Positions 493 to 62,866 of a stretch of 64,000 nt of DNA are shown here, piece by piece. The stretch is from positions 2,666,001-2,730,000 of the forward strand of contig CP032931.1 in assembly GCA_003666485.1 (NCBI GenBank), given 5' to 3'. Source of the stretch: Levilactobacillus brevis (GTDB lineage: Bacteria; Bacillota; Bacilli; Lactobacillales; Lactobacillaceae). A model generated the notes under the pieces. It searched no databases. It saw only the letters and a program-made list of their open reading frames with translations, and had not been told where the DNA came from. How positions within the stretch are numbered: position 1 is the stretch's first letter; every line of letters begins with the position of its first letter. The position numbers and the translations under genes are program-made.

Positions 493-776
493 CTTAGTCG
501 TTTACAGCCCCGTAGTGGGGACTGGTCGCCTACCGTCCGCCAAATATGGGTCGGAACGCGGTGGGCGGACCGGACCGAGCCTGAAAAGCGGTCTCGGCCT
601 CGCTTTGAGCCGATGGCCCACGTCTCCAAGACGCCAGTCTCCTAAGCGGCATGAAACGCGCCGCTAAGGAGACTCCCACGGCTGAACCCATATTTGGCGA
701 ACTCTCGGCTACAAGAGTACGTGCTACTAGCAGTCGGCTTAGTCCCAGATAGCAGGCAGAATCTCTGGCTGACACA
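493..776 (+). repeat. Structured intergenic repeat, copy A (domain I complete, domain II mostly lost)
   Basis: Starts near a terminal motif CTTAGTCGTTTACAG. The closing helix of domain I pairs 535-552 (GTCCGCCAAATATGGGTC) with 684-702 (GAACCCATATTTGGCGAAC). Inside are a CTCGG/CCGAG-type helix (about 577-596), the CTTTGAG..CTCCAAG-type helix and a hairpin GTCTCCTAAGCGGC / GCCGCTAAGGAGAC (637-673). After the spacer only the edge of domain II remains (AGCAGGCAGAATCTCTGGCTGAC). No protein frame is convincing. Orientation is defined as domain I before domain II. Confidence 0.8.
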
Positions 777-930: not shown

Positions 931-1304
931 CTAAAGGTTGCAAGTACAAAAACACCTGATAATACTCAGCTGACAAGGATTGTGAACATGAAATTAGTCC
1001 ACACCGCCATCTGTAGCAGTCAGAGATTACCCGCAAAATTTGCAAGGAAATTTCTGAAATGGCAACGTTCATCCACATTAGTAGGCAACCTGTCACGTAG
1101 CCGTGAGTGAGCTAAATTTGGACTCAGCCGCGAGGTTGAAGACCGCCTTTTGGCTTCGACCGGTCCTTCCCACAGCGTCACGGTCCAAATTTGGCGAACG
1201 GTAAGGTGGCCAGCACAGAGCAAGGTGCGTTCAAAGACTAAATTTATCCCTGTAAACCCTGGTGTCACCATAAATTTAGCTACTTTTAAACTTGCAACCT
1301 TTAG
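931..1304 (-). repeat. Structured intergenic repeat, copy B (TIR subfamily, internally deleted)
   Basis: Bounded by CTAAAGGTTGCAAG (931-944) and CTTGCAACCTTTAG (1291-1304), exact 14-bp terminal inverted repeats shared with copy D at 52018. Domain II is deleted and domain I keeps the closing helix (1107-1125 with 1181-1199, AAATTTGG core) and one inner hairpin GGTTGAAG/CTTCGACC, while two other inner hairpins are gone. No target duplication is visible beside the ends. Lies 29 bases past the end of the LysR gene. Confidence 0.85.
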
Positions 1305-8793: not shown

Positions 8794-9137
8794 AAATAAT
8801 AGCTTGTTTCTGTCAAAGCTCAACGTGCAGCAAGTCTACTACAACTAGCTCCACATTACCACAATTCCAGCAGTTAGCAACCGTAGAATTGCTTAGCGAA
8901 CTTATCCATTATCCGGCAAAGTCTGACAGAAATAAAGACTTTCTTTTTGCTAAATTTTGTTGCTACCCTCTTGCGTGGGTTCTAAGCCAGTCTTTGGCAG
9001 TTACATAGCCGATACTGGCCGCCTCGCCGTCGAAGTCTGGTTCTCCCTGTTTCAGCGACAATGCCTGATTCTAACGCTAAGTCACCACACTTTCAAGCTA
9101 AAGTGGAACTTTTACTGTCAATTAAAGAGGCTGAATA

Positions 9138-9329
9138 ACGAAAATCGGCTAGAAGCGAGGTTGAAGACCGACTTTTGGCTTCGACCGGTCCTTCCCACAG
9201 CGTCACGGTCCAAATTTGGCGAACGGTAAGGCGACCAGCACCAATCACATGACATTCAAAGACTAATTTTGTCCCTGTAAACCCTAGTGTCACCATAAAT
9301 CCGACTGCATTCCAACTTGCAATCTTTAG
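9138..9329 (-). repeat. Structured intergenic repeat, copy C (truncated)
   Basis: Only the 5' half of the element is kept: the terminal repeat CTTGCAATCTTTAG (9316-9329, one change from the 14-bp TIR), the segment TGGTGACACTAGGGTTTAC shared with copies B and D, one arm of the closing helix (CCAAATTTGGCGAAC, 9211-9225) and the GGTTGAAG/CTTCGACC hairpin (9161-9188). The partner arm of the closing helix and all of domain II are missing. The rest of the 8743-9137 gap shows nothing I can name. Confidence 0.8.
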
Positions 9330-11569: not shown

Positions 11570-12088
11570 ACGTTGGCGAAACCAGAATGCCTCCGTCAGC
11601 CAGCAATTCCGCCTGCTCTGGGGAACACCTCCAGCCTGAGAAACGGTCTTCCGGTTCGCTTGAAAGCCTGGCAAAGTTCACCAGTCTCTCAAGTCGTCCC
11701 ACCCAGTAACCTGGTAAGAAACACCAGCTAACTGGGTCGACACAGCTGGCTCCATTGCTGGCTGACTCCGGCGGGTTAGGGCTTGTCAACGACTCCGATA
11801 TCAATTAGAGACGACTATGGGCTTTCGTTACTAAGGGTTAACACCATTAGTAGTTAATCATCCGTGTCGCCGAGAGTCCACCAAATATGGGTTCAGCCGT
11901 GGGAGTTACCTAAACGGCATGACTTTTCATGCCGCTTAGGTAACTGGCGTCTTTGAGACGCGGTCTTTCGGCTCAAAGGCGAGGTGTCGAGACCGACCTT
12001 TGGCTCGACCCGTCCGCCCACCGCGTTCCGACCCATATTTGGTGGACGGTAGGCGGCCAGCCCGGACCGTGTGTCTGCAAATAACTAG
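11570..12088 (-). repeat. Structured intergenic repeat, copy E (nearly complete)
   Basis: Domain II (about 11585-11780) then spacer then domain I (11874-12047), ending in CTGCAAATAACTAG (12075-12088). Closing helix GTCCACCAAATATGGGT pairs with ACCCATATTTGGTGGAC; the CACC/GGTG part is a compensated change relative to other copies. Inner hairpins GTTACCTAA..TTAGGTAAC, CGTCTTTGAG/CTCAAAGGCG and GTCGAG/CTCGAC. Domain II hairpins CCCAGTAACCTGG/CCAGCTAACTGGG and CAGCCAGCAA/ATTGCTGGCTG. Confidence 0.85.
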
Positions 12089-21933: not shown

Positions 21934-22977
21934 TTACTTCACGGGATCGGCAACCCAGTCGAATTCCAAACTGGGATCAGCGTTCAACGTGGCATCCGCA
22001 AAGACGCCGTGTTGGTAGGCCACGTAGGCGAAGGCACCGATCATGGCGGCGTTATCCCCGCACAGGTTCAGCGGTGCCTTGACCAAGTGGGTAACCGGAT
22101 TACTTGCCAAATCACGTTCCAAACGTTCGCGCAGACCATGGTTAGCGGCCACCCCACCAGCCAAGATCAGTTGATGAACCGGGTAATCTGCCAGGGCCCG
22201 TTGCGTCTTTTCAGCTAAGACATCAACGACCGCTTGTTGGAAACTGGCAGCCAGGTCCTGCTTGTTTAGGGTCTCACCGATTTGGTCCGCGTGATGGGTC
22301 GTGTTGATGAAGGCACTCTTCAAGCCGCTAAAGCTAAAGTCGAAGTTATCGTCCTTCTCCATTGCCCGCGGGAAGTTAAACGTATCGTGTCCCTGGTGCG
22401 CCCATTCGTCGACGGTCTTACCGGCAGGATAGTTGACCCCCATGACCCGCCCGACCTTGTCGTAAGCTTCCCCAGCAGCATCGTCACGGGTCTCACCGAT
22501 GATTTCAAATTCATTTTCGGCGGGCATGTACACCAGCTCCGTGTGGCCCCCAGATACCAGCAAGGCCATCGCTGGAAATTCAATGGGTTCCACGTAGCGG
22601 GCCGCATAGATGTGCCCGGCCATGTGGTTGACCGGAATCAGTGGCAGGTTGTGGGCAAAGGCCACCGTCTTGGCGGCCGTCACGCCGATCAACAAGGCGC
22701 CGACCAGACCAGGACCATAGGTAACCGCCACGGCGTCTAGGTCGTCGTAAGTCACCTGTGCCTCATCCAAGGCATCCTTGATGCACAGCGTGACCTCTTC
22801 GATGTGATGACGGCTGGCAACTTCGGGTACGACCCCACCAAACCGTTGGTGACTCTTGATCTGCGTGGCCACGATGTTGGACAAGATCTTATGGCCGTCT
22901 TCAATAACCGCCACACTCGTTTCGTCACAACTCGACTCAAACGCTAAGATTAAATTTCGCTTTTCCGTTGGACTCAC
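21934..22977 (-). CDS. tsaD: tRNA N6-threonylcarbamoyladenosine synthase subunit TsaD
   Basis: A 347-residue TsaD (Kae1/Gcp) with the ASKHA fold and the metal-binding HMAGHIYAA pair of histidines (about residues 115-123). It attaches the threonylcarbamoyl group to A37 of ANN-decoding tRNAs, with TsaB and TsaE. The start GTG follows AGAGGGA very closely; no better start is seen. In most relatives tsaB-rimI-tsaD form one operon, but here a terminator and a structured repeat of about 500 bp separate rimI from tsaD, so tsaD needs its own promoter or one supplied by the repeat. Confidence 0.96.
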
Positions 22978-23017
22978 TCCCTCTAAAATTCACGATAACT
23001 TGAAATTGTACATACCA

Positions 23018-23525
23018 TTTGCCTCCGCCAGCCAGGGGTTCCGCCTGCTATGGGGAACGCCTCCAGCCTGAGGAACGGGCTTCCGGTTCGCTTCAAAGCC
23101 TCGCAAAATCCGCGAGTCTCTGAAGTCGTCCCACCCAGTAACCTGGCAAAAGACGCCAGCTAACTGGGTCGACACAGCTGGCTACACCCCTGGCTGTCTC
23201 CGGCGGGACTGATCAGTTCTGATCATTAATCAGCAAACCAGGATGCTGGTATCACTAGGAGACAACCGGTGAACTGACCACCAACTGCTGCTACCAACCA
23301 CTACCGTAGCCGAGAGTTCGCTAGATATGAGTTCAGCCGTGGGAGTTTTCTAACCAGCAACGTTCCTTGCTGGTTAGAAAACTGGCAGCTTGGAGACGCG
23401 ATTCACCGGCTCCAAGCTGAGGGTCGAGACCGCACTTTGGCTCGGCCCGTCCGCCCACAGCGTTCCGACTCATATCTAGCGAACGGTAGGCGGCCAGTAC
23501 GACTCGTGTTGTCTATCTCTACCAG
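23018..23525 (-). repeat. Structured intergenic repeat, copy F (nearly complete)
   Basis: Domain II (about 23021-23210), spacer, domain I (23316-23484). The closing helix GTTCGCTAGATATGAGT (23316-23332) pairs perfectly over 17 bp with ACTCATATCTAGCGAAC (23468-23484): both arms differ from other copies, in step. Other compensated helices: GTTTTCTAACCAGCAA/TTGCTGGTTAGAAAAC, CAGCTTGGAG/CTCCAAGCTG, CTTCA/TGAAG, CTCGC/GCGAG, CAGCCAGGGGT/ACCCCTGGCTG. It splits the rimI-tsaD gene pair. Confidence 0.88.
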
Positions 23526-23542
23526 CTGCAGTTGGTGTCATT

Positions 23543-23572
23543 AAAAAAACGAGCGGCGAAGCGCCTACTCGT
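23543..23572 (-). terminator. rimI terminator
   Basis: ACGAG..GGCG/CGCC..CTCGT stem followed by seven T on the minus strand; it overlaps the last codons of rimI. Confidence 0.85.
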
Positions 23573-32370: not shown

Positions 32371-32590
32371 GACTAGCAACATTGGTTAGCCTGGCCGCCT
32401 TACGTTGCGCGAAAGCTAGGCTGGAACGCTGGGGAAGGACGCCCCGAGCCAAAAATCGGTCTCGGCGCTTGCTTTGAGCCAGTAGGTCGCTGTCTCAAAG
32501 TCACCAATTTGCCAGCAAAGACCGCTGACAAATTCCCCGGCTGAGCCTAGTTTCGCTCCACTCCGGCTGACACGTGACGGAAATCCATCA
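32371..32590 (+). repeat. Structured intergenic repeat, copy G1 (domain I only, diverged)
   Basis: Contains domain I only. The closing helix arms GCGAAAGCTAGGCT (32409-32422) and AGCCTAGTTTCGC (32544-32556) share almost no sequence with other copies yet still pair, with one bulge. Inner helices: GAGCC..GGTCTC-type, GCTTTGAGCC..CTCAAAGT and AATTTGCCAGC/GCTGACAAATT. A diverged member of the family. Confidence 0.75.
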
Positions 32591-32627
32591 GCCAACTCAT
32601 ATCGTCCGTTCACTAGGATTTGTCAAA

Positions 32628-33386
32628 CCCGTTGCCTGCGACTGCCAGGGGTTCCGCCTGCTCTGGGGGACACCTCCAGCCAAAGAGCGGGCTTCCGGTT
32701 CGCTTAAAAGCCTGGCAAAAATCGCCAATCTCTCAAGTCGCCCCACGCTGTAGGCTGAGAAAAACCCCCAGCCAACACCGTCGACACAGCTGGCTACACC
32801 CCTGGCAGCCTCCGGCAATGATAGTGTGCCCACAGTTGAGATTGCGTTAACCCAGCCGTGTCATGACTGAATTGTTCGTTTGATGCTTTCTTCTATAGTA
32901 AATGGTCAAAATCATGAATGACACACAGTGACTGATTAAATGCTGCCATAATCATTGTCGTATACCATCGTTCACCTACATATTAATCAGTTACATAGCA
33001 CATCTGTAAATATATCATCAGCACGATGGAACCCTCTTTCAGACCAGGGGGCGGTCTACTGGCCGATTCCAATTAACAAGTACCTGTTCAGTGATTGTAC
33101 GTTTGTCCAAATTCGATGCTAGAACCAGCTGGAACTGAAGGCTAAATCTATTGTCGATTAGAGTCACCCTGTAGCCGAGAGTTCGCCAAATATGGGTTCA
33201 GTCGTGGGAGTTCCCTTAGCAGCGGGTTGGGCTGGTTAGGGAACTGGCAACTTGGAGACGTGGGTTACCGGCTTCAAGTTGAGGGGCGAGACCGCTCTTC
33301 GGCTCGCCCCGGCGCCCACAACGTTCCGACCCATATTTGGCGAACGGCAGGCGGCCAGCTCGGATTGTGTCGCTGCAAACACCTAG
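32628..33386 (-). repeat. Structured intergenic repeat, copy G2 (longest copy)
   Basis: Domain II (about 32630-32820) with CTGCCAGGGGT/ACCCCTGGCAG and GGCTGAG..CCAGCC hairpins; an unusually long AT-rich spacer (about 32825-33170); then domain I with the closing helix 33181-33199 to 33328-33345 (CCAAATATGGG type) and hairpins GTTCCCTTAG.../..TTAGGGAAC, AACTTGGAG/CTTCAAGTT and GGGGCGAG/CTCGCCCC. Ends at CTGCAAACACCTAG (33373-33386). The long spacer may contain a second insertion. Confidence 0.85.
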
Positions 33387-33623: not shown

Positions 33624-33639
33624 TGTTGATATCTCATAA

Positions 33640-33725
33640 ACTTGAAGCACAAAGCGAAACAAACTTAGTGCTGCTTCCTTCCGGACCTGACACGATTCGT
33701 AAGCCCACCCTTGCTTCAAGGCCTT
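33640..33725 (-). ncRNA. ffs: Signal recognition particle RNA (small 4.5S type)
   Basis: Minus strand contains the universal SRP domain IV: CAGGTCCGGAAGGAAGCAGC preceded by GGGTGGGCTTACGAATCGTGT, with closing stem CTTGAAGCA / TGCTTCAAG. This is the short bacterial form that binds Ffh for co-translational membrane targeting. Position between tadA and dnaX is the normal one in Firmicutes. Exact ends are estimated from the closing stem. Confidence 0.93.
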
Positions 33726-40546: not shown

Positions 40547-41123
40547 CTGGTTATTTGCAATCCTAGCGCACAAACTGACCGCCTGCCGTCCGCCAAATAT
40601 GGGTCGGATTGCTGTGGGCGGACGGGTCGAGCCAAAGTGCGGTCTCGACGCCTCGCCTTTGAGCCGAAAGTTCACGTCTCAAAGACGCCAGTCACCTAAC
40701 CAGCCCAGACCGCTGGCAAGGTAACTCCCACGGCTGAGCTCATATTTGGCGAACTCCCGGCTACAGGGATGGTCTACCAGCAATCAGTTGGACCGTAACA
40801 ACAGCTGAAGACAATCAAGTCTGGCCCAATTGCAGTGTCACTGACAAGCACCAATCCGCCGGAGTCAGCCAGTAGTGTAGCCAGCTGTGTCGACCCAGTT
40901 AGCTGGCGTTTTTAGCCAGGTTACTGGGTGGGACGACTTGAGAGACTGGCGGGCTGTGCCAGGCTTTCAAGCGAGCCGGAAGACCGCTCCCCAGGCTGGA
41001 GGCGTTCCCCATAGCAGGCGGAACTGCTGGCTGACGGAGGCATTCTGGTTTCGCTAGCGTTCCAACCCATATTTGGCGGACGGTAGGCGGCCAGCTCGGA
41101 CTAGGTAGCTGTAAATAACTAAG
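40547..41123 (+). repeat. Structured intergenic repeat, copy H (complete, second TIR subfamily)
   Basis: Begins CTGGTTATTTGCAA (40547-40560) and ends CTGTAAATAACTAAG (to 41123); the outer 60 bases form an imperfect inverted repeat that includes GCCGTCCGCCAAATATGGGT at both ends. Domain I 40588-40753; spacer; domain II about 40865-41050 with CCCAGTTAGCTGG/CCAGGTTACTGGG and TTGAGAGACTGG/CCAGGCTTTCAA hairpins. The terminal motif matches those of copies A, E and G2 and differs from the CTAAAGGTTGCAAG ends of copies B, C and D. Confidence 0.88.
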
Positions 41124-43781: not shown

Positions 43782-43905
43782 AATGATTGACCCCTCCCCG
43801 TAGTTCTTCATTATCGCAAGCTGCTTGGTAAAGAACAATCTTAACCCCGTTCAACGACGCGGTTAATTTGTCTACTTTACAGCTCTCTCACCTATCAGCA
43901 TACCA

Positions 43906-43949
43906 AAAAGGCGTAAAGCCGCCTACAACTTTAGGTGGCCTTACGCGAA
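43906..43949 (-). terminator. Terminator of FMN reductase gene
   Basis: GCGTAAGGCC / GGCTTTACGC arms with CTTTTTGG on the minus strand. Confidence 0.85.
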
Positions 43950-43993
43950 TTTTAAAGCTTCGGCTAATTTTTAACGGGGTAAATCATTACGAC

Positions 43994-44593
43994 CTAGTCG
44001 GCCACACGCCGGTACGGGTGGTCCTTAGTGAGCTGCGCGTAATGCCGTAACTCATTGGCGGCCTCGGCTAAGCGCTGGGCGAAATGGTCGCTGTTGGCCG
44101 CATCCGGGACCAGATCGCCGGCCGCCGTAAAGTTGGGTTCAGCATTCCACAACAGGACTGGCGTCGGCAAGACCAGCATTTTAAGCATTTGCAAGATTCC
44201 CACAAAGGAGGCCGCCGCCAGCATCCCGCCGTCACTGTACTTGGAGTAGGTCACAATCTGGACGGGCTTGGCCGCCACTTCGGGGCCCACAAAGTCCAGC
44301 GCATTTTTTAGACTGCCGGGAATGGCGTGGTCATACTCGGGACTCAAGATGATGTAGCCATCTTGTTCCGCCAGCACGTCCAACCACCGTTTCTCCGGTG
44401 CGGCCAACTGCTGAATGGGTTCTGACAACGGTGTCTCCGCGTGGTCATACAACGGCAGCGGATAGTCTTGTAGGGCGATCCACGTGTACGTGACGCCGGT
44501 CGTCGGCAGGGCCCGTTGTAGATACTGGAAGAGCCGCTTCCCTAATGAATGTGTCCGCGTCGTGCCTAAAATTACACCAATTTTTACTGTCAT
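43994..44593 (-). CDS. NADPH-dependent FMN reductase
   Basis: A 199-residue flavodoxin-fold reductase. FMN-phosphate loop GTTRTHSLGKR (about residues 8-18) and SPEYDHAIPGSLKNALDF (about 80-97) are the family signatures. It uses NADPH to reduce FMN, quinones or azo compounds. ATG at 44593 has AGGAGG eight bases upstream. Stands alone between mprF and dedA. Confidence 0.92.
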   Translation of the reverse strand: MTVKIGVILGTTRTHSLGKRLFQYLQRALPTTGVTYTWIALQDYPLPLYDHAETPLSEPIQQLAAPEKRWLDVLAEQDGYIILSPEYDHAIPGSLKNALDFVGPEVAAKPVQIVTYSKYSDGGMLAAASFVGILQMLKMLVLPTPVLLWNAEPNFTAAGDLVPDAANSDHFAQRLAEAANELRHYAQLTKDHPYRRVAD

Positions 44594-44840
44594 GTTCATG
44601 GCCTCCTGTTTTGATTGACAAGGCTAACTATATCACGCAGGTTAACTGATTACAATAAAAACTAATTAATCATTTGATAACTAAAAGTAAGTAGATTGGC
44701 TTGTTGGTGGTCAATTGTCTGCCGCAATAGATTCGAACCCATCATCCCAAAAAATCTGCCAAGCGCCGAAAAACCACTTGATAGATTTGAAATGATACAC
44801 AGCAACTAAAAATTATATAGACGTGGGCCCGTTCTTTTCG

Positions 44841-45479
44841 TTACGAGCGGCGCCACGTCCGCATCCATCCTACGAGGGCCGGTATCAAGGACACCACAAT
44901 GATTCCCAGCACGACTGCAGAAAAGTGGGCCTTCACAAAAGCAATATTCCCGAAGAAATAGCCGCCCCCACAACAGAGTGTCACCCAAGCAACTGCCGCG
45001 CCCACATTGTACTTGAGGAACCGCCGATAGGCAAACTGCGAACCCGCAGCAACAAACGGGACGAAGGTACGGATGATTGGCAGGAACCGCCCCAAGAAGA
45101 TAGCGATGGGCCCATGCTTCTTGAAGAAGGCCGTCGATTGTGCCAAGCGTTCCTGATTGATCAACCGACTAAACCAGGACCGTTTGCCAAGTAGGACACC
45201 TGCCCGTCGTCCCAAGTAAAAATTCAAAGAGTCTCCAGCGATGGCTGCCATCAGAAAAACAGGCACGAATACCCAGATGTGTAAACCGTACGCTGGGTTC
45301 GCAGCCAACGCCGCAGCCGCGAAAAGCAACGAGTCACCGGGGAGAAAGGGCAAAATCACTGCCCCGGTCTCCACAAAGATGATGGCAAATAAGATGAGAT
45401 AGGTGGAACCGCCAAACGTATTGACGATGTTGACTAAATGACTATCAATGTGTAACACGAAATCGACTAGATATCCCAT
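44841..45479 (-). CDS. DedA family membrane protein
   Basis: A 212-residue DedA/SNARE-associated (VTT domain) protein with four to five hydrophobic segments and the motifs FVETGAVILPFLPGDSLLF and GRFLPIIRTFVPFVAG. DedA-type proteins recycle undecaprenyl phosphate or flip phosphatidylethanolamine across the membrane. ATG follows AAAAGGAGG. It is 21 bases after the yfhO gene, in line with a membrane carrier-lipid role for the whole group. Confidence 0.9.
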   Translation of the reverse strand: MGYLVDFVLHIDSHLVNIVNTFGGSTYLILFAIIFVETGAVILPFLPGDSLLFAAAALAANPAYGLHIWVFVPVFLMAAIAGDSLNFYLGRRAGVLLGKRSWFSRLINQERLAQSTAFFKKHGPIAIFLGRFLPIIRTFVPFVAAGSQFAYRRFLKYNVGAAVAWVTLCCGGGYFFGNIAFVKAHFSAVVLGIIVVSLIPALVGWMRTWRRS

Positions 45480-45500
45480 TTACGCGCCTCCTTTTCTGTT

Positions 45501-48122
45501 TTAAGATTTTTTCGCATGCTTCTTTTGTCGTGAATGTTGTCGCGTCCGCATCCCATCGACGAGACCAAAGCCAATCAGGCTCATCGCACTGACACCGAGG
45601 CCTAAGCGTCCACCTGGCACCCGGTAGGTTAGGGTCACTTGGTTATTCCCAGCTTGGATTGGGAGTCCCATTAACCCATTTAGCAATCGGTGAGGTTGGA
45701 CCCGTTTGCCATTGACCGTGGCTTGCCACCCCGTATCGTAGGGAATGCTCAGGAACAACTCGGATTTTTGTTGCGAACCTTTAACTTGGCCCGTCAACTT
45801 CGTTTGAAAATGACTAGGAACCGTGTGGATGGTGAGCTTTTGTTGCCGCAGATCAGCCAATAACTGATTAAAAGCGGCCTGGCGCAGAACCATGACTTGC
45901 GTCTTGTACAGGGCCACAGGATAGGTCGCCGCAAAATGACAGGTGATGGTCTGCCCTTTCTTAAAGTCGCCCAAATTAATCAGTGTCGCCCGGCCATTGG
46001 CATTCATGCTGGGCTTAATTTTAGTGCCATTCACCACCATCGTCGTATACTTGGTACCGCCGCCGACAGACCACAGATAGGCTGGTCCAGTTGCCGTCGC
46101 ACGTAACGTCATGATGTGATGATAGGCATAGGTCGTTGGCACCCCATGCACGCTGTTGACCCGTTTGACTGTATCCTTTAACAACTTAGTTTGCGCGAAG
46201 TAGTGCTGTGCTTGTGGCCGCAAAGCCTGCATGATACTCTCCTGATTTCGCAGCGCATTTGTTCCCAATTGCACTTGACTCAGCGCTGAAGCGACCGCAA
46301 AGCCCATACCGTTATAACTCTTAGCTGGCGTGGTAATCGCCCCGGAACTGGTCAGGTGAACAGAATCTTTTACGCCCAACAGTAGTTCACTCAGTGGTGT
46401 CAGTCCCAGTGCCCCAATCCGCCGAACGTTGTCACTGTACAACCCTAGCTTTTGCAAGGTCGTCCGCGTCTGCTCGTTCAACGTCGAATTGTAAGCCGTC
46501 ACCCCGTGAAAGTTAAAGAGTAGACTATCATTGTAGTTGTTGTAGTGTTCCGCGTAGGCCCGATTGATTAACGTATTATCATTTTGAACGCGATAAAGTT
46601 GCCCATCAGGATCGTTAACCTGCGCCATCTGCTGATTCTCTTGCCGGTAGGCCGTCGCGTAAGCCGTTTGGTTGCCAAAGGGGGTGGACCGCATCGCTAA
46701 AATAAAATTGCCCCCCACTTCGGTTAGCACTAGCAACCCAACCAGCCATTTTCGCCAGTAACGTTGGGTCCCAAAAATAACGGCTCCGGTCAAAACCATG
46801 TAGATTGCCGCGATGCCAATGCTTGGCCAATGCGCTTGGCCGATACTGGCATAGTACTTTTCGAGTTTAACTGACCGTCCCTTCATGAGTCTCACCATGA
46901 ATGGAATGAATTGCACCCCAACGACCATACTAACAACTTGAATCGTCGGGAGTCCCCATTGCCAATAACGGTTAATCCGCCGCGGCTCAGCTTGCCAAAC
47001 CGCAAAGGCCAGCACGACCATGACAAAGCTCAAGAAAAATACGTTACGAAACGGAAATCCCGCTGGTGCCTGAAGCATATGCCAAATCGTATTAAACGTG
47101 CGAATCCACATCGCCAGGAATAGGAACCCTAAGAATATCCCCGCTGACCATTTCTGCCGCCGAGAAAAATGTGGATGCACAAAGTAGCTCAGTGTTAATA
47201 AGACGATTGCACTCGATACAAATACGGTTGGTGCATGGCCCAGGCGCTGCGTGTAGTTCGTCGCTCCCACCCCAAATTGCGCAAAAAATTCCAGCCCAAA
47301 TTCTGGCAAAAAACGTAAATTCAGCGCGTTACTAGTCGTTTTAGCCGTCTGTAACATGCCCAAGGCCGTTGGCAACAAAACCACTGCCGCACTTAGCCCA
47401 CTCAGTACGGAGGTGAGTGCAAACTGGCCTAATCGACCGCGCCATTCACTTGCCATCGCGTGATGCTCGTATGTCCAGTTAAACAATACGTAACTAAAAT
47501 AGCCGACTGCAAACAAGCAGGTCATGTATCCCAAATAATAATTCGTCACAATGCTGGCCAACAACCAGCCGAAGAACATCCCCGGCCGATGGTCAATGAC
47601 CAACCGATCGATGCCGGCCGCAACCAGTGGCAAAATAATTAAGGAATCTAACCACATGAAGTCAAAGTAGTTCAGTGCCACAAACCCACAGAAACTAAAG
47701 GCTAAGGCAAATACCACGGTTAATCGTTGGGTGGTCCGAAAATGCCGTTGGAGGTACCAAGTCATGGTTGCCGCAATCGTGGCAATCTTTGCCATGACAA
47801 TGATGCTGGCCGCTACCGGTACCTGTGCCGCACTGAAGAAAATGACAATCAGGTTAAATGGACTGAGTAAATAATAGGCAACCGTGGGGACCACGACACT
47901 CCCCAGTGACTGCGAGAACGAATAGAGATGAAAGACCTGATATTTCAGCGCATGTTGCAGTGCCGTCAGCAAGGGAATGTACTGCGTTCCCATGTCACTG
48001 ATCAACAGGTTATGATTGCCAAACGGACTCACCCGCCAATAACCAAAGACTCCTATGACGATGATTAAGGCAATCAGCCAGGCGAGCCCCACATTTTGCC
48101 AAAACTTTTTCTTTACCAACAT
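45501..48122 (-). CDS. yfhO: YfhO family membrane glycosyltransferase
   Basis: An 873-residue polytopic protein of the YfhO family (PF09586) with about 13 hydrophobic segments, the outside-facing first loop DMGTQYIPLL, and a C-terminal extracellular beta-rich domain. In Bacillus, YfhO transfers sugar from an undecaprenyl carrier, made by CsbB, onto lipoteichoic acid. Here it follows a PAP2 phosphatase and a CsbB/GtrB-type transferase with short spacings, so the same job is likely. The last hydrophobic segment is followed by a lysine-rich tail. Confidence 0.9.
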   Translation of the reverse strand: MLVKKKFWQNVGLAWLIALIIVIGVFGYWRVSPFGNHNLLISDMGTQYIPLLTALQHALKYQVFHLYSFSQSLGSVVVPTVAYYLLSPFNLIVIFFSAAQVPVAASIIVMAKIATIAATMTWYLQRHFRTTQRLTVVFALAFSFCGFVALNYFDFMWLDSLIILPLVAAGIDRLVIDHRPGMFFGWLLASIVTNYYLGYMTCLFAVGYFSYVLFNWTYEHHAMASEWRGRLGQFALTSVLSGLSAAVVLLPTALGMLQTAKTTSNALNLRFLPEFGLEFFAQFGVGATNYTQRLGHAPTVFVSSAIVLLTLSYFVHPHFSRRQKWSAGIFLGFLFLAMWIRTFNTIWHMLQAPAGFPFRNVFFLSFVMVVLAFAVWQAEPRRINRYWQWGLPTIQVVSMVVGVQFIPFMVRLMKGRSVKLEKYYASIGQAHWPSIGIAAIYMVLTGAVIFGTQRYWRKWLVGLLVLTEVGGNFILAMRSTPFGNQTAYATAYRQENQQMAQVNDPDGQLYRVQNDNTLINRAYAEHYNNYNDSLLFNFHGVTAYNSTLNEQTRTTLQKLGLYSDNVRRIGALGLTPLSELLLGVKDSVHLTSSGAITTPAKSYNGMGFAVASALSQVQLGTNALRNQESIMQALRPQAQHYFAQTKLLKDTVKRVNSVHGVPTTYAYHHIMTLRATATGPAYLWSVGGGTKYTTMVVNGTKIKPSMNANGRATLINLGDFKKGQTITCHFAATYPVALYKTQVMVLRQAAFNQLLADLRQQKLTIHTVPSHFQTKLTGQVKGSQQKSELFLSIPYDTGWQATVNGKRVQPHRLLNGLMGLPIQAGNNQVTLTYRVPGGRLGLGVSAMSLIGFGLVDGMRTRQHSRQKKHAKKS

Positions 48123-48131
48123 TGCTTCCCC

Positions 48132-48779
48132 CTACTCTTGGGCCTGAATCTTTCGCCACCGCTGAACGACCCGTTCATAGACGCTTACGACTTGTAACCA
48201 CCAGCCACTGGCCAGTAGGACGCTCCCCAAGACATCACTTGGAAAATGATTGCGTAACCCCAATCGAGCCAGCATGATGGCAATGACCCCCATGACAATG
48301 ACGGCCGTCACACTCCAAAACACGGCATTGCCCTTTAAAAACTGATACAGTAACGTAATCACAATGCCAGCCACCAATGCCGTGCTAAAGACATGGCCGC
48401 TGGGAAAGCTGAAGCCACTATCGGCCACAACGGGCTGTAATGGTCGTACCCGCCCTACCAAATCCTTCAAAGCGAGTAGTAGGCCGTCCCCACCGATAAT
48501 GCCTACCAAAGTCGCGACTGACCAGCCAACTTGACGAATTCGCCAGAGAAATAGGGCCAGAACCACGGCAAGGCCACCGGTAACCAAGGGACTGCCCAGC
48601 AATGTCAACCATTCCCAGACCCGGATGTGTTGTCCCAAACTACTGCCACTGAAAGCCGTCAGCCACTGATGATCCAGACTGATCAGGGGCTCAAATTGCA
48701 TCTTAATCAAAATTGCTAAAATACCAAATAGGCCAAAGAATCCCAAAGCCAATTGCTGATTACGTTGTGTTAATGTCAT
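48132..48779 (-). CDS. PAP2 family lipid phosphatase
   Basis: A 215-residue membrane protein with six hydrophobic segments and the three PAP2 motifs: KDLVGRVRP, PSGH and RLGLRNHFPSD. It likely dephosphorylates undecaprenyl pyrophosphate or a related lipid. Located between the GT2 transferase and yfhO genes, each with its own ribosome binding site (TAGGAGG here). Confidence 0.92.
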   Translation of the reverse strand: MTLTQRNQQLALGFFGLFGILAILIKMQFEPLISLDHQWLTAFSGSSLGQHIRVWEWLTLLGSPLVTGGLAVVLALFLWRIRQVGWSVATLVGIIGGDGLLLALKDLVGRVRPLQPVVADSGFSFPSGHVFSTALVAGIVITLLYQFLKGNAVFWSVTAVIVMGVIAIMLARLGLRNHFPSDVLGSVLLASGWWLQVVSVYERVVQRWRKIQAQE

Positions 48780-48788
48780 GATAGCCTC

Positions 48789-49730
48789 CTACCGCTTGTC
48801 CTTGATCAAATATTGTGGTCGGTGTTTCGTCTCTAAGTAGATCCGCCCAATATACTTTCCTAAAATACCCAGGCACAGTAGCTGCAGGCCACCTAGCATG
48901 AGAACGATGGCGACCAATGACGGCCACCCGGCAGTTGCATTCCCAAATAACAGTGCACGAATCACAATCCAGATCATTCCCAGAATTGCGGTAACAAACG
49001 ATAAACCGCCCAGCCAGGAGGCAATCGCCAGCGGAACTTCAGAAAAGTCCACGATGCCGTCTAACGAGTAATCTAGTAACTGACGCATCGACCAGTGCGT
49101 TTCACCAGCAACCCGATCCTGGTGGGAAAAGGTGAGGTACTTGGTCTTAAAGCCGACCCAACTAAAGAGTCCCTTGGAAAAGCGGTTTGACTCCGGCAAA
49201 TCAACGATAGCCGTCACCACGGAGCGCCGCATTAACCGGTAATCACGTGCACCCGGAACAATCTTTACCTGTGAGATCCAGTTGATGACGTGGTAAAATG
49301 CCGCGGATAATTTGGAACGCAACCAGGGTTCGCCTTGACGGTCTGACCGCTTCGTTGCGACCACGTCATAGTCCGTTTCCATCAGCATCTGAATCATGGT
49401 GGGCAACAACTCTGGTGGGTCCTGCAGATCCGCATCCATCACTGCGACAAAATCTCCCTGTGCCGCCTTCAGTCCGGCTAGTAACGCCGCTTCCTTACCG
49501 AAATTACGGGAAAAATCAACGTAATGCACGCCGTCTGGATTAGCGGCGTGCAAATACTGCAGTTGCTGTAACGTTTCATCACTTGATCCGTCATTTACGA
49601 ACCAATATTCCCATTGAAATTGTTCCCGATGGTGGTTAAAATCAGTTAAAATTTGTTCAACGCGTTTATAAAATAATGGCAAACTCTCTTGCTCGTTGTA
49701 ACACGGGACAACGATGGAAATAACTTGCAT
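48789..49730 (-). CDS. Undecaprenyl-phosphate glycosyltransferase (GtrB/CsbB type)
   Basis: A 313-residue GT2 enzyme: catalytic domain with VVPCYNEQESLPLFY, VMDADLQDPPEL (D-x-D type) and SRNFGKEAALLAGL, and two C-terminal membrane helices (about 235-290). It places a sugar on undecaprenyl phosphate at the cytoplasmic face; YfhO then uses it outside. No GtcA-type flippase is beside it. ATG follows TGAGGAGG. A terminator/attenuator hairpin lies between it and the upstream histidine kinase gene. Confidence 0.92.
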   Translation of the reverse strand: MQVISIVVPCYNEQESLPLFYKRVEQILTDFNHHREQFQWEYWFVNDGSSDETLQQLQYLHAANPDGVHYVDFSRNFGKEAALLAGLKAAQGDFVAVMDADLQDPPELLPTMIQMLMETDYDVVATKRSDRQGEPWLRSKLSAAFYHVINWISQVKIVPGARDYRLMRRSVVTAIVDLPESNRFSKGLFSWVGFKTKYLTFSHQDRVAGETHWSMRQLLDYSLDGIVDFSEVPLAIASWLGGLSFVTAILGMIWIVIRALLFGNATAGWPSLVAIVLMLGGLQLLCLGILGKYIGRIYLETKHRPQYLIKDKR

Positions 49731-49750
49731 GACACACCCTCCTCACCCAC

Positions 49751-49805
49751 AAAAAAAGTACCTAACACACATGGATTTTTGACTATCTCCATGATAGTTA
49801 AGTAC
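49751..49805 (-). terminator. Terminator or attenuator between kinase and GT2 genes
   Basis: Minus-strand GTACTTAAC..CCATGTGTGTTAGGTAC pairs across a loop, then seven T. It stops or attenuates read-through from the two-component genes into the glycosylation genes. Confidence 0.65.
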
Positions 49806-49835
49806 ACGATTTGCTAAAACAGTTAGAAAAAGAGA

Positions 49836-51221
49836 TTAATCTGAGAGTTTATCAGAATTCTCAGCTACTGGGAATTTCAAGATAAACTGGGACCCCCGGG
49901 GCAGATTGTCGCTCACACGAATCGTCGCGTGGTTTAATCCCACTAATTGGGCAACGATGGCCAACCCCAGACCCGTGCCGCCGATTTGCCGAGTGCGGGC
50001 CGAATCGACCCGATAAAACCGCTCAAAAACATGGGCCTTATCTCCATCAGCAATGCCCAAGCCCAAATCCTGAACTGCGAGTTGCACGTGCTGGGCCGTC
50101 TGGATCAGTGACAGGGTAATGGGTTGATCCGCGGCCGAATATTTACCGGCGTTATCGAGTAAAGCGACCAGTATCTGATGCATGCTTTCTGCGTTGCCGT
50201 AAATGATGGCCGTTGTCTCCCCAGTGACACGAATGGGTTGACTGAGGACGGTTTGTTCTTCTTCAACCGTTTCATTGATGGTCTCCGCTAAGTCAAAATA
50301 AGCCAACGTCAGGGTTCCCCTGTCCGCCCGAGAAAGTGTCAGCAAGCTATTGACCAATTTTTGCATTCGCTGCGATTCATCGTCAATAAATTGAACTGAC
50401 CGCGGCACAATCTCGGGATGCTCTTGACCGCGTCGTTCAATCAGACGGACGTGACCCCGAATCGCCGCAATCGGTGTTCGCAGTTCATGTGCAGCGTTAG
50501 AAATGAATTCACGTTCCTGACTAGCGTGCTGATTGATGGTCGTCAAGAGTTCATTGATGCTGTTCGCCAGCTGGGTGACCTCACTGGGCTGATTAGGCAC
50601 CGGCAAAGTTGCTTTGGTCGTGCGGACGTGTGATTGCTCTTGCGCCGCCACATTCAGGCTGGACAACGGCTGGGTGATTTGTCTGGCCGTAAACCGAATA
50701 TAACCCCACCCGACACCTATCGTCACCAACATAATGAGTAGGACCACCAACACGACCGACAACAAGACTGTGGTGATTGGCCGCAGACTCAACCAGATCT
50801 GCGAGTGAATGCCTAAGCGAACACCCGCACGATAGTAGGTAAACCCATATCCGGGTGTATAAGCAACGGCCGAAAAGATTGGCATTTGATAATGTTTGGC
50901 CTTTAAAAACTTTTGCGTATTCGGTGAGTAAAAGGTCGCCGGGGCTTCACCAATCTTGCTGTTATAGACACGCACCATGGTATTTTTCGTATTGATCGAA
51001 CTACTCTTCCGCCAGCGATTCCAATCTGGCTTATCATCGATGATTGAACGGTTAAGACTCGCCATCAGTTCTACTGACGATTGCTCACTCTGCTTGACCA
51101 ATTGATAGCCGACCGTGAGAACCACGGCACCACCCATCACCAGGGTCAGCAGTACCAGCATCCACACGAAGCGGTGCTGAATCTCCTGGGCGGTCGACAA
51201 GGCACGTTTATTTTTCGCCAT
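49836..51221 (-). CDS. Two-component sensor histidine kinase (ArlS-like)
   Basis: A 461-residue kinase with two membrane segments (about residues 20-42 and 155-180) flanking an extracellular sensor, a HAMP domain (about 180-235), HisKA with the phospho-His in NAAHELRTPIAAIRGH (about 250), and HATPase with DNAGKYS, DLGLGI and GTGLGLAI. ATG at 51221 overlaps the regulator region by placing AGGGGTGAG upstream. Paired with the response regulator just before it. Organisation resembles ArlRS/CsrR types. Confidence 0.94.
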   Translation of the reverse strand: MAKNKRALSTAQEIQHRFVWMLVLLTLVMGGAVVLTVGYQLVKQSEQSSVELMASLNRSIIDDKPDWNRWRKSSSINTKNTMVRVYNSKIGEAPATFYSPNTQKFLKAKHYQMPIFSAVAYTPGYGFTYYRAGVRLGIHSQIWLSLRPITTVLLSVVLVVLLIMLVTIGVGWGYIRFTARQITQPLSSLNVAAQEQSHVRTTKATLPVPNQPSEVTQLANSINELLTTINQHASQEREFISNAAHELRTPIAAIRGHVRLIERRGQEHPEIVPRSVQFIDDESQRMQKLVNSLLTLSRADRGTLTLAYFDLAETINETVEEEQTVLSQPIRVTGETTAIIYGNAESMHQILVALLDNAGKYSAADQPITLSLIQTAQHVQLAVQDLGLGIADGDKAHVFERFYRVDSARTRQIGGTGLGLAIVAQLVGLNHATIRVSDNLPRGSQFILKFPVAENSDKLSD

Positions 51222-51226
51222 TCCGC

Positions 51227-51922
51227 TCACCCCTGATAGTCTGCCGACAACACGTACCCGACACCACGGACCGTGTGAATCAGCGGCTGGCTCTGTTCGT
51301 CCCTTAACTTATGCCGTAAATAACGGACGTAAACGTCGACCACGTTGGGTTGGCCTTCAAAATCCACGCCCCAAACTGCATCAAGTAGCTCGTCACGGGT
51401 CATGGTTTGACCAGCATTCTTCATCAAACATAGCAGGAGTTCATACTCTCGTTGTGTCAGCTGCACCAGCCGGTCATTGCGTCGTACCTGACGGGCACGC
51501 ATATCCAACGTGACATCCGCCACGTGAAGCTGACTGTTGGCGCTGGCTCGATGATGTTGATGTCGTAGAATAACCCGAATCCGCGCCAACAACTCTTCGA
51601 TTTCAAACGGTTTGGTAATGTAGTCATCCGCCCCGGTGTCCAAGCCGGCTACCTTGTCACCGACGTAATCGCGGGCAGTCATCATAATCACGGGTAAATC
51701 ATCATGCTTCCGAATGCGCCGCAGGACCCCCAGCCCATCCAACTCAGGCAGCATCCAATCCAAAATGATCAAATCCAAATTGCCACGATTAGATTCATAG
51801 ACGGCCAATGCCGTTTTGCCATCCATCGCATTCAAGACGGTATAATCCTCAAACTGTAATTCTGTTGTCAATGAGGCAAGCAACGCTTCGTCGTCTTCCA
51901 CAATTAAAATTGTTCCGGCCAT
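51227..51922 (-). CDS. OmpR-family response regulator
   Basis: A 231-residue regulator: receiver domain with the phospho-acceptor Asp in LIILDWMLPELDG (about residue 55), acidic pocket EDDEALL, Lys in ITKPFEIEELLARI, and a C-terminal winged helix (about 135-225; ARQVRRNDRLVQLTQREYELL, VVDVYVRYLRHKLRD). Likely controls the glycosylation genes downstream and others. Its upstream region reaches repeat copy D. Confidence 0.95.
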   Translation of the reverse strand: MAGTILIVEDDEALLASLTTELQFEDYTVLNAMDGKTALAVYESNRGNLDLIILDWMLPELDGLGVLRRIRKHDDLPVIMMTARDYVGDKVAGLDTGADDYITKPFEIEELLARIRVILRHQHHRASANSQLHVADVTLDMRARQVRRNDRLVQLTQREYELLLCLMKNAGQTMTRDELLDAVWGVDFEGQPNVVDVYVRYLRHKLRDEQSQPLIHTVRGVGYVLSADYQG

Positions 51923-52017
51923 ATTTTCACTCCGTTCATCTTACTTACCTTTCAGCTTAATCATTTTATTGGTGAAAAGCTATTGGGGAGACTTAATCAC
52001 AAGTTAAAATTAAACAA

Positions 52018-52632
52018 CTAAAGGTTGCAAGATTGAAATCAGCTAGCTTTATGGTGACACCAGGGTTTACAGGGACAAAATTAGTCTTTGAATGTCATGT
52101 GATCGGTGCTGGTCGCCTTACCGTTCGCCAAATTTGGACCGTGACGCTGTGGGAAGGACCGGTCGAAGCCAAAAGGCGGTCTTCAACCTCGCTTCGAGCC
52201 GAAAATCACGTCTCGAAGACGCCAGTTTCCAAGAAAATCACTTGAAAACTCCCACGGCTGAGTCCAAATTTAGCTCACTCTCGGCTACGTGACAAGTTAC
52301 CCACTAGTGTGGATGAACGTTGCCAGTTCAGTGATTTTCCTGCAAATTTTGCAGGTAATCACTGATGTAATCGGAGGCAGTCAGAAGTGTAGGTTGCTGT
52401 GACAACGGTGTTAGCTGAGCGCTTTTCCTCAGCTTACTGCGTGGGACGCGTTTGGAGATTGACGGTATTTGTCAAGCTTCAAACCGAGTCGGCGGACCGC
52501 TCCATAGGCCGCCGGCGTTCCCCATAGCTACCGGAATCTCTGACAGCCGCAGATGGCGGTGTGGACTAATTTCATGTTCACAATCCTGGTCAGCTGAGTA
52601 TTATCAGGTGTTTTTGTACTTGCAACCTTTAG
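52018..52632 (+). repeat. Structured intergenic repeat, copy D (complete, with TIRs and target duplication)
   Basis: 615 bp. Ends CTAAAGGTTGCAAG (52018-52031) and CTTGCAACCTTTAG (52619-52632) are exact 14-bp inverted repeats. The flanking TTAAACAA (52010-52017 and 52633-52640) is an 8-bp direct repeat, the mark of transposition. Domain I 52123-52278 (AAATTTGG-type closing helix, GGTTGAAG/CTTCGACC, CGTCTTCGAG/CTCGAAGCG helices). Domain II has GTTAGCTGAG/CTCAGCTTAC and GTTTGGAG../..CTTCAAAC helices. No coding frame of note. Confidence 0.92.
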
Positions 52633-52677
52633 TTAAACAACCGCTACGTTTAGCCGCCACGATCCAAATCAAGCCAC

Positions 52678-52712
52678 AAAAAAACCGCCACCCGAAGGCA
52701 GCGGCTCATTTT
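52678..52712 (-). terminator. rplJL terminator
   Basis: GCCGCTGCC-TTCG-GGTGGCGGT stem with a tetraloop and seven T on the minus strand. Confidence 0.88.
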
Positions 52713-52728
52713 TTGTAAGTGAAGGTGA

Positions 52729-53094
52729 CTACTTAAGCGTAACCACACCACCAACGGCTTCAAGCTTTTCCTTGATGTCGTTAGCTTCGTCTTCAGAAAC
52801 GCCTTCCTTGATGACAGATGGTACGTTGTCAACAAGACCCTTAGCGTCCTTCAAACCTAAACCAGTGATTTCACGGACAGCCTTGATGGCCTTAACCTTG
52901 GCGTCACCAGATTCAGTTAATTCAACGTCGAATGAATCCTTGGCAGCAGCGTCGCCACCAGCAGCACCGGCTGCAGCAACTGGGGCAGCAGCGGATACGC
53001 CGAATTCGTCTTCGATACCCTTAACTAAGTCGTTAAGGTCAGTAATGGATGCTTCTTTAAGAGAAGCGATGATAGCATCTTTATCAAAAGCCAT
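52729..53094 (-). CDS. rplL: 50S ribosomal protein L7/L12
   Basis: A 121-residue L7/L12: N-terminal dimer domain, Ala/Gly hinge ([16 protein letters not shown], about residues 36-51) and C-terminal factor-binding domain ([20 protein letters not shown]). Forms the ribosomal stalk with L10. ATG follows GGAGGAAAA. Last gene of the rplJL unit. Confidence 0.99.
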
Positions 53095-53666: not shown

Positions 53667-53850
53667 CTCCCGGAGTAGTTTGGTGGGATAAAAAAATCCC
53701 TATGCCACCAAGACATAAGGAGTCAAAAGTTTAAGTAAACTTCTGCCTCGGCAGGAAATTAAGACCATTAGGCCACCTGAGTCTTAGGTAGATCTATTAA
53801 ATACAACTTCAATAGCATACAATACTTCGACATTGCTGTCAATGCATTGT
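53667..53850 (-). promoter_or_regulatory. rplJ leader, probable L10-binding autoregulatory RNA
   Basis: About 180 bases between rplA and rplJ with paired segments CCTAAGACTC-like and GGTGG..AGGGAT/ATCCC..CCACC next to the ribosome binding site. L10 (with L12) is known to bind this leader in Firmicutes; I see the position and hairpins, not a confirmed match. Confidence 0.5.
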
Positions 53851-62335: not shown

Positions 62336-62866
62336 CCTGAGTCGGCCTGGGTCCCGCCTGCTCTGGGGAACATGGCCAGTCTGAAGAATGGTCTTCAGGT
62401 TTACTTGAAAGCCTGGCAAAGTTCGCCAGGCTCTCAAGTCGCCCCACATTGTAGGTTGAGAAAGAATCTCAGCCAACACCGCTGATCCAGATAGGGCCAC
62501 CCCTGGCTACCTCCGATAAGTTGGCATCTATCAATAACACTGTGTTGACTGGAACTTAGTTGACAAGTCACCTGCTACCAAGGGCTAAGTCGATTGTGTT
62601 TGATAGGCACTCCAGTAGCCGGGAGTCCGCCAAATATGGGTTCAGCCGCTGAAAAAGAGTGTGACAACAGGCGGCTAACTGGCGAGCATTAACGGTGCTA
62701 GGCGGATAATCCTGCTTCTGGATTATTTGCCTAGCAGTGTTAAGCGGAACCAGTTGCCTGTTGGCGCACGTTTCGGCTGTGAGGCAATTTGAGACTCGAC
62801 CCGTCCGCCCACAGCGACACGACCCATATTTGGCGGACGGTAGGCGGCCAGCCCCCTGAATCTAGG
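62336..62866 (-). repeat. Structured intergenic repeat, copy I (complete, with a nested second element)
   Basis: Domain II (about 62340-62515) with GTTGAGA..TCTCAGCC hairpin; spacer; domain I closing helix 62625-62643 with 62821-62838 (GTCCGCCAAATATGGGT / ACCCATATTTGGCGGAC, 17 bp). The usual inner hairpins are replaced by the second structured element at 62657-62765. Located between yacL and gltX. Confidence 0.85.
62657..62765 (+). ncRNA. Second copy of small structured element (K), nested in repeat copy I
   Basis: AGAGTGTGACAACAGGCGG.., outer stem AACAGGC/GCCTGTT with AACTGG/CCAGTT, CGAGCATTAA and TTAAGCGGAA conserved, inner stem TGCTAGGC/GCCTAGCA. Each stem differs from element J but still pairs. 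There is no terminator after it. Confidence 0.6.

Follow-up and report, generated by a model that had tools for sequence, protein, structure and literature searches.

Copy D, a 615-bp element at positions 52018-52632 of the window (the whole 64-kb stretch of DNA analysed, from a Levilactobacillus brevis genome referred to here as G000), belongs to a family that has transposed in Levilactobacillus in a DDE-type manner and that carries two structured modules, D1 and D2, each folding better on the strand that points outward than on the other. Our preferred reading, to which we give about an even chance, is that of a MITE built around two inverted modules whose fold would work as RNA. More tentatively, the family may be an undescribed Lactobacillaceae class of structured RNA that spreads as back-to-back outward pairs, with hosts keeping the fold after mobility is lost. 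If this is right, a branched fold without a match in Rfam would rank with the most frequent sequences found between genes in a genus of food bacteria, and the many natural variants per genome would allow direct structure probing and tests of function. It also raises the question of whether bacteria retain RNA modules brought by dead transposons.

Copies of the element and past transposition

The original prediction had described a dispersed family of mobile elements, with transposition marks on copy D and no encoded protein, and each of these points was borne out. Copy D lies between a response-regulator-like gene and rplL, and its TIRs and flanking duplication were found again, both exact. 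Its parts are given below, with modules scored by R1, a covariance model of D2, or by R2, which scores D1-type modules.

52010..52017, no strand: target duplication, left copy, TTAAACAA (exact, 8 bp)
52018..52031, plus strand: left TIR, CTAAAGGTTGCAAG (exact, 14 bp)
52112..52290, minus strand: structured module D1, folded on the minus (outward) strand (R2, 190.5 bits)
52291..52375, no strand: variable spacer between D1 and D2 (alignment)
52376..52548, plus strand: structured module D2, folded on the plus (outward) strand (R1, 173.2 bits)
52619..52632, minus strand: right TIR, inverted CTAAAGGTTGCAAG (exact, 14 bp)
52633..52640, no strand: target duplication, right copy, TTAAACAA (exact, 8 bp)

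The sole listed ORF of at least 80 aa overlapping copy D (52452-52718, 88 aa, TTG start) exits the element and has no Pfam match. Copy D had no match in phage and plasmid collections, and blastn against its own genome gave at least 72 matching pieces (best 40 of 259 candidates scored). No intrinsic terminator was found inside it; three such sites sit at 52682-52707 beside rplL, outside the element. Promoter-like sites in copy D number three against a shuffle mean of 0.6, as consensus matches only; a site TTCACA-16-TATTAT at 52577-52604, in the right arm, points outward.

Merging R1 and R2 matches and excluding antisense echoes, we counted 16 domains in the 64 kb of the window, at the positions proposed for copies A, B, C, E, F, G1/G2, H, D and I. 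The copies other than D are as follows.

525..714, minus strand: copy A, D1-type module (R2, 163.7 bits)
931..1304, no strand: copy B, exact TIRs at both ends without duplication, partial D1 at 1095-1210 (R2)
9003..9235, plus strand: copy C, decayed D1-type module (R2, 44.8 bits)
11595..12057: copy E, D2 on minus at 11595-11766, D1 on plus at 11864-12057 (R1, R2)
23027..23494: copy F, D2 on minus at 23027-23198, D1 on plus at 23304-23494 (R1, R2)
32394..33355: copy G, D1 on minus at 32394-32572, D2 on minus at 32640-32810, D1 on plus at 33169-33355 (R1, R2)
40578..41035: copy H, D1 on minus at 40578-40766, D2 on plus at 40864-41035 (R1, R2)
62341..62848: copy I, D2 on minus at 62341-62511, decayed D1 on plus at 62613-62848 (R1, R2)

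Within the window, TIRs at both ends and duplication occur together only in copy D; the flanks of copy B match at 4 of 8 bases. Twenty evenly spaced 15-kb stretches of G000 (300 kb) hold 28 domains, from which we extrapolate about 280 domains in this genome; relative to this sample the window is domain-rich.

Mobility was assessed on 53 distinct TIR pairs lying 200-900 bp apart across the loci studied. With ends allowed a one-base shift, 7-8 of 8 flanking bases match at 33 of the 53 pairs, compared to 0/212 in shifted and 10/1044 in random pairings. TIRs of 14 bp combined with 8-bp target duplications thus indicate that the element moved like a DDE-type element. Insertion sites in relatives agree with this. 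We compared two other copies with seven genomes: the site of the first is uninterrupted in G033 (with partial matches in two genomes and none in four), and that of the second in G030 and G017 (with split matches in four and none in one). None of these three uninterrupted loci holds a domain. The intergenic flanks have diverged too far for the target to be followed at single bases. At rplL itself, in 30 loci from 34 genomes (two of them ending early), the element stands beside the gene only in G000, and G018 carries a partial D2 ~970 bp away; gene order beside rplL varies between genomes, so this site is no clean empty site.

Among TIR-bearing loci and the IS6-type loci of the genus, no transposase sharing the ends of the element, CTAAAGGTTG(A/C)AAG, was found. 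TIR pairs are 260-700 bp apart among the matches listed in G014 and G017. Seven wider pairs (900-4000 bp) occur in the loci studied, and ORFs from two of them, judged by eye, gave no sign of an autonomous element: L059 has a 291-aa membrane-protein-like ORF, and no transposase was recognised in L115. A domain lies within 1.2 kb of 116 of 121 TIR sites, leaving 5 without, in loci mostly preselected for a domain or a TIR.

The family extends well beyond G000, in which R1 has at least 80 matches (80/80 scored candidates, a saturated count). R1 matches 32 of 35 Levilactobacillus genomes, and 79 of the 80 matches listed from a D2-pattern scan of named genomes (at least 101 stretches) belong to Levilactobacillus, the remaining one to an uncultured Lactobacillus bin. 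Among 246 genomes sampled from the order, five match, including G000; three come from further genera within this family (best E 4.5e-21, 2.3e-15 and 1.2e-10), and one weak match falls outside the family (E 8.4e-5). This reach into other genera had escaped the original prediction. The sequences from other genera diverge widely yet keep the helices, with compensatory changes, and at seven loci in two of these three genera we again find a minus-strand fold on the left and a plus-strand fold on the right. None of 12 loci in other genera scored above 16, the maximum of 60 random G000 controls, for TIR plus duplication. In the third genus, L249 (G246, 500-1131) carries three modules head-to-tail on one strand with ~263-nt spacing.

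Two inverted modules and their outward folds

When 28 two-domain copies from G000 and its relatives are aligned, two conserved cores stand out, D1 and D2, separated by a variable spacer. The original prediction was right that there are two domains, and it missed that they are inverted relatives of each other on opposite outward strands. Profiles of D1 and D2 overlap at 21 places, in opposite orientation at all 21 (the weaker E of the two reaching 2.3e-9), and the window has 10 D1 domains, 7 of which R1 recovers on the opposite strand, as predicted (E 2e-11 to 7e-5). Antisense echoes of R1 on D2 itself are weaker (E 5e-7 to 6e-4), yet overlap with the weakest D1 matches. Together, the profile overlaps and the R1 matches on D1 rule out that D1 and D2 are unrelated domains and indicate, from sequence comparison, that the element is one module of ~175 nt present twice, back to back, i.e.: that D1 and D2 are inverted homologues. 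The arrangement is largely constant: all nine two-domain pairs in the G000 sample face outward, as do 176 of 216 neighbouring domain pairs across all loci, with 1 inward and 39 same-strand pairs, the latter including some fragments of single domains.

Covariation was examined in alignments of both modules and its significance judged by column shuffles. For D2, 46 of 53 chosen sequences entered the alignments (A2/A3); for D1, 55 of 65 chosen sequences entered alignment A1 together with copy D, and four rows, one of which had masked bases, were removed to give the 52 rows of A4. D2 shows 59 pairs, 33 of them changed on both sides, with 96.1% of cells paired, and reverse D1 shows 53 pairs, 32 of them changed on both sides, with 96.5% paired; since most of the excluded rows were weaker or carried indels, the figure of ~96% describes the better copies. 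None of 500 column shuffles reached the observed covariation in D2, nor any of 500 in reverse D1, and sliding the partner by 1-3 columns reduced pairing from 96% to 28-50%. The folds are hence above chance; D2 has 7 helices by our count and D1 has 6.

Single-sequence folding gave z-scores of -5.9 for D2 and -4.9 for reverse D1, but the reverse strand of D2 folds well too (-4.7), so z-scores alone cannot tell the strand. Alignment folding favours the outward strand for both modules (D2: -134.3 vs -113.3 for the other strand; reverse D1: -109.0 vs -98.4). Individual pairs point the same way: D2 columns 12-169 hold AU in 19 rows, GU in 18 and GC in 9, and columns 83-108 hold GU in 38 and AU in 8, no A-C being shown at either; reverse D1 columns 30-179 hold UA in 26, UG in 23, CG in 2 and another combination in 1. 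Alternation of A-U or G-C with G-U, without A-C, suggests that one strand folds by itself, be it RNA or DNA, and disfavours a double-stranded palindrome. Among pairs common to the folds of both strands, the excess of G-U over A-C is milder (only 45:26 and 56:35).

Retention of the fold and position among genes

TIRs with duplication stand clearly above control only at copy D among 26 places in the window and the G000 sample (27 tests: two for G, and one for A and B together). The scores of 17 for H and L357, one above the highest control (16), came from core similarity, with 4/8 flank matches. In G000 sample domains, 978/1020 and 373/386 pairs are nonetheless intact against ~80% for randomly placed changes, in a count of matches at E <= 1e-12 (27 of 28 sample domains) where some domains also belong to the model alignments and alignments are fitted to the model. 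These domains hold 127 both-side changes, and G-U outnumbers A-C by 80 to 15.

To compare cores and arms, 43 TIR-less copies were set against the nearest of 26 TIR-bearing ones (of 97 two-domain copies, 28 were intermediate between these classes and were set aside). Median identity was 84.6% and 85.6% in the cores, with the reservation that copies were found via their cores, which favours conserved ones, and 61.6% and 60.7% in the arms, where random sequence gives 59.4%. Within TIR-bearing copies, arms are 80-83% and cores 91-93% identical. Because TIR-less copies keep their cores beside arms that are nearly random, the fold looks selected apart from mobility, and the simplest reading is that it would be under selection in copies no longer able to move. 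The original view that selection keeps the fold across the family gains support from this and from the abundant compensatory changes; that many copies have lost their TIRs had gone unnoticed. Alternatively, core conservation could stem from spread by another route, or from repeated replacement of elements at one site. The site of copy F (22977-23565) would be compatible with this: it holds D2/D1 here, a D1/inverted-D1 pair in G033 and a short remnant in G030 (L315, L318). G030 also has a copy where copy H lies, a possible orthologue.

The 24 elements placed in the window and sample lie in 14 co-directional, 9 convergent and 1 divergent gaps (background gaps: 107, 38 and 43), and the 230 placed across all loci in 130, 85 and 15 (background: 340, 116 and 116); in the latter count 57 elements were unplaceable and gene calls were the longest ORFs, and the background came from a subset of loci and includes gaps holding elements. 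Convergent gaps thus hold more elements than the background would predict, and divergent gaps fewer. In co-directional gaps the median distance is 115 bp to the end of the upstream gene vs 217.5 bp to the start of the next. Both the gap types and this nearness agree with insertion close to the ends of genes. Among single intact domains lying in co-directional gaps there is no sense bias (19 sense, 17 antisense), so no tie to the mRNA of the neighbour is seen, weakening a role in that mRNA. Where a copy has two domains, D2 is the sense module in 27 cases and D1 in 41.

Known elements and rival readings

The element had been said to belong to no named family, and in Rfam this holds: release 15 gave no match at gathering level or at E <= 1, and seven related loci gave two sub-threshold matches, both outside the modules. 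Open-licence papers yielded no literature on this family, nor any report of a MITE containing two strand-specific folds in inverted arrangement. With its TIRs, target duplication and absence of coding capacity, the family behaves like a bacterial MITE whose autonomous partner was not found. According to passages of PMC2229807, the bacterial MITEs Correia/NEMIS, ERIC, RUP and RPE are likewise non-autonomous and intergenic, with TIRs, duplications and predicted folding transcripts, and NEMIS RNA has been suggested to be processed by RNase III; they are ~100-200 bp long and form simple long stem-loops, whereas the element here measures 615 bp and has a pair of inverted, branched modules that fold on opposite, outward strands. 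The same passages present the CIR repeats of Caulobacter/Brucella, which also have two arms, a linker and a phylogenetically conserved predicted RNA structure, but which differ in size and fold, each arm being a long inverted repeat that carries GANTC in a loop. In the Bacillus cereus group, bcr1-bcr18 (100-400 bp, TTTAT motif; bcr1 averaging 39 copies, up to 130 integral) are similarly group-restricted, intergenic, mobile and multicopy (passages of PMC6542083), in contrast to the 14-bp TIRs with 8-bp duplications of the present element. The passages of both articles describe no paired, branched, outward folds.

The IS6 family shares the 8-bp duplications with our element. The 14-bp TIR of IS26 has GTTGCAA at the same offset as the MITE TIR here. 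In IS6-type loci of the genus a TIR was recognised in 8 of 16, reading GGCTCTGGTGCAAA (6) or GGTTCTGGTGCAAA (2), and none was recognised in the other 8. These TIRs differ from that of the MITE in all 8 loci, which speaks against IS6 as the mobilising partner, and no IS6 match exists in G000. L341 and L345 contain isolated 10-bp stretches resembling the MITE TIR, without pairs.

Under our preferred reading, a transposase would have acted on the element in trans, RNA would be produced when transcription crosses the element or starts inside it, a factor of host or element would recognise the fold, and the host would use or tolerate it. With an outward fold on each half, reading of either strand yields one native fold, in the exit half, and the proposed recognition of the RNA fold would explain why TIR-less copies still keep it. 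This reading is supported by the TIR and duplication statistics, the uninterrupted sites, the inverted homology, the covariation, the outward folding and arrangement, the excess of G-U over A-C, the folds kept without TIRs and the gap bias; the lack of a transposase in our searches, the 19:17 split, the lack of an intrinsic terminator in copy D and the milder G-U excess on pairs shared by both strands count against it. On these grounds RNA is a likelier working form than any other, but the G-U pairs could also be G-T pairs in single-stranded DNA. That the fold works in the latter form, for transposition or for replication once an end turns single-stranded, we regard as unlikely: both modules do fold on the transferred strand, the one that a DDE transposase would link to its target by the 3' end, the duplications show transposition and there is no sense bias to neighbouring genes, yet TIR-less copies keep the fold, other genera have it with no recognised TIR plus duplication (12 loci), and cut-and-paste DDE transposition is not known to go via single-stranded DNA.

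A rather smaller chance goes to a trans-acting RNA or decoy, in which some copies would be transcribed from a promoter of their own and their RNA would bind a protein or another RNA, most copies being passengers. Such a role would suit a fold independent of the neighbour's strand, the outward promoter-like site and the tandem array in G246; it does not need hundreds of kept copies, and the promoter-like site, a consensus match only, follows the D2 fold. It is quite improbable that the family is an inert selfish repeat, with folds as by-products of palindromes and inverted duplication and with alignments reflecting the common descent of young copies. Past mobility is evident from TIRs and duplications, and TIR-bearing copies are more alike in their cores (91-93%) than TIR-less ones (85%), as such a repeat would have it. 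Compensatory changes within the genus and in other genera, the G-U pattern and cores at 85% beside arms at the random level all speak against inertness.

Some observations concern the surroundings of these copies. The distance between rplL and mprF is ~8.9 kb here (43838-52729) vs ~280 bp in G012 and 1.06 kb in G030; here the two genes are separated by a block with glycosyltransferase-like and response-regulator-like genes. The mprF matches in L296, L297 and L298 (G009, G028 and G027) contain one internal TGA and one internal TAA, so the gene may be broken in that related species group. Two known RNAs from Rfam lie on the minus strand of the window: a ribosomal protein L10 leader at 53682-53806 and a small SRP RNA at 33636-33722.
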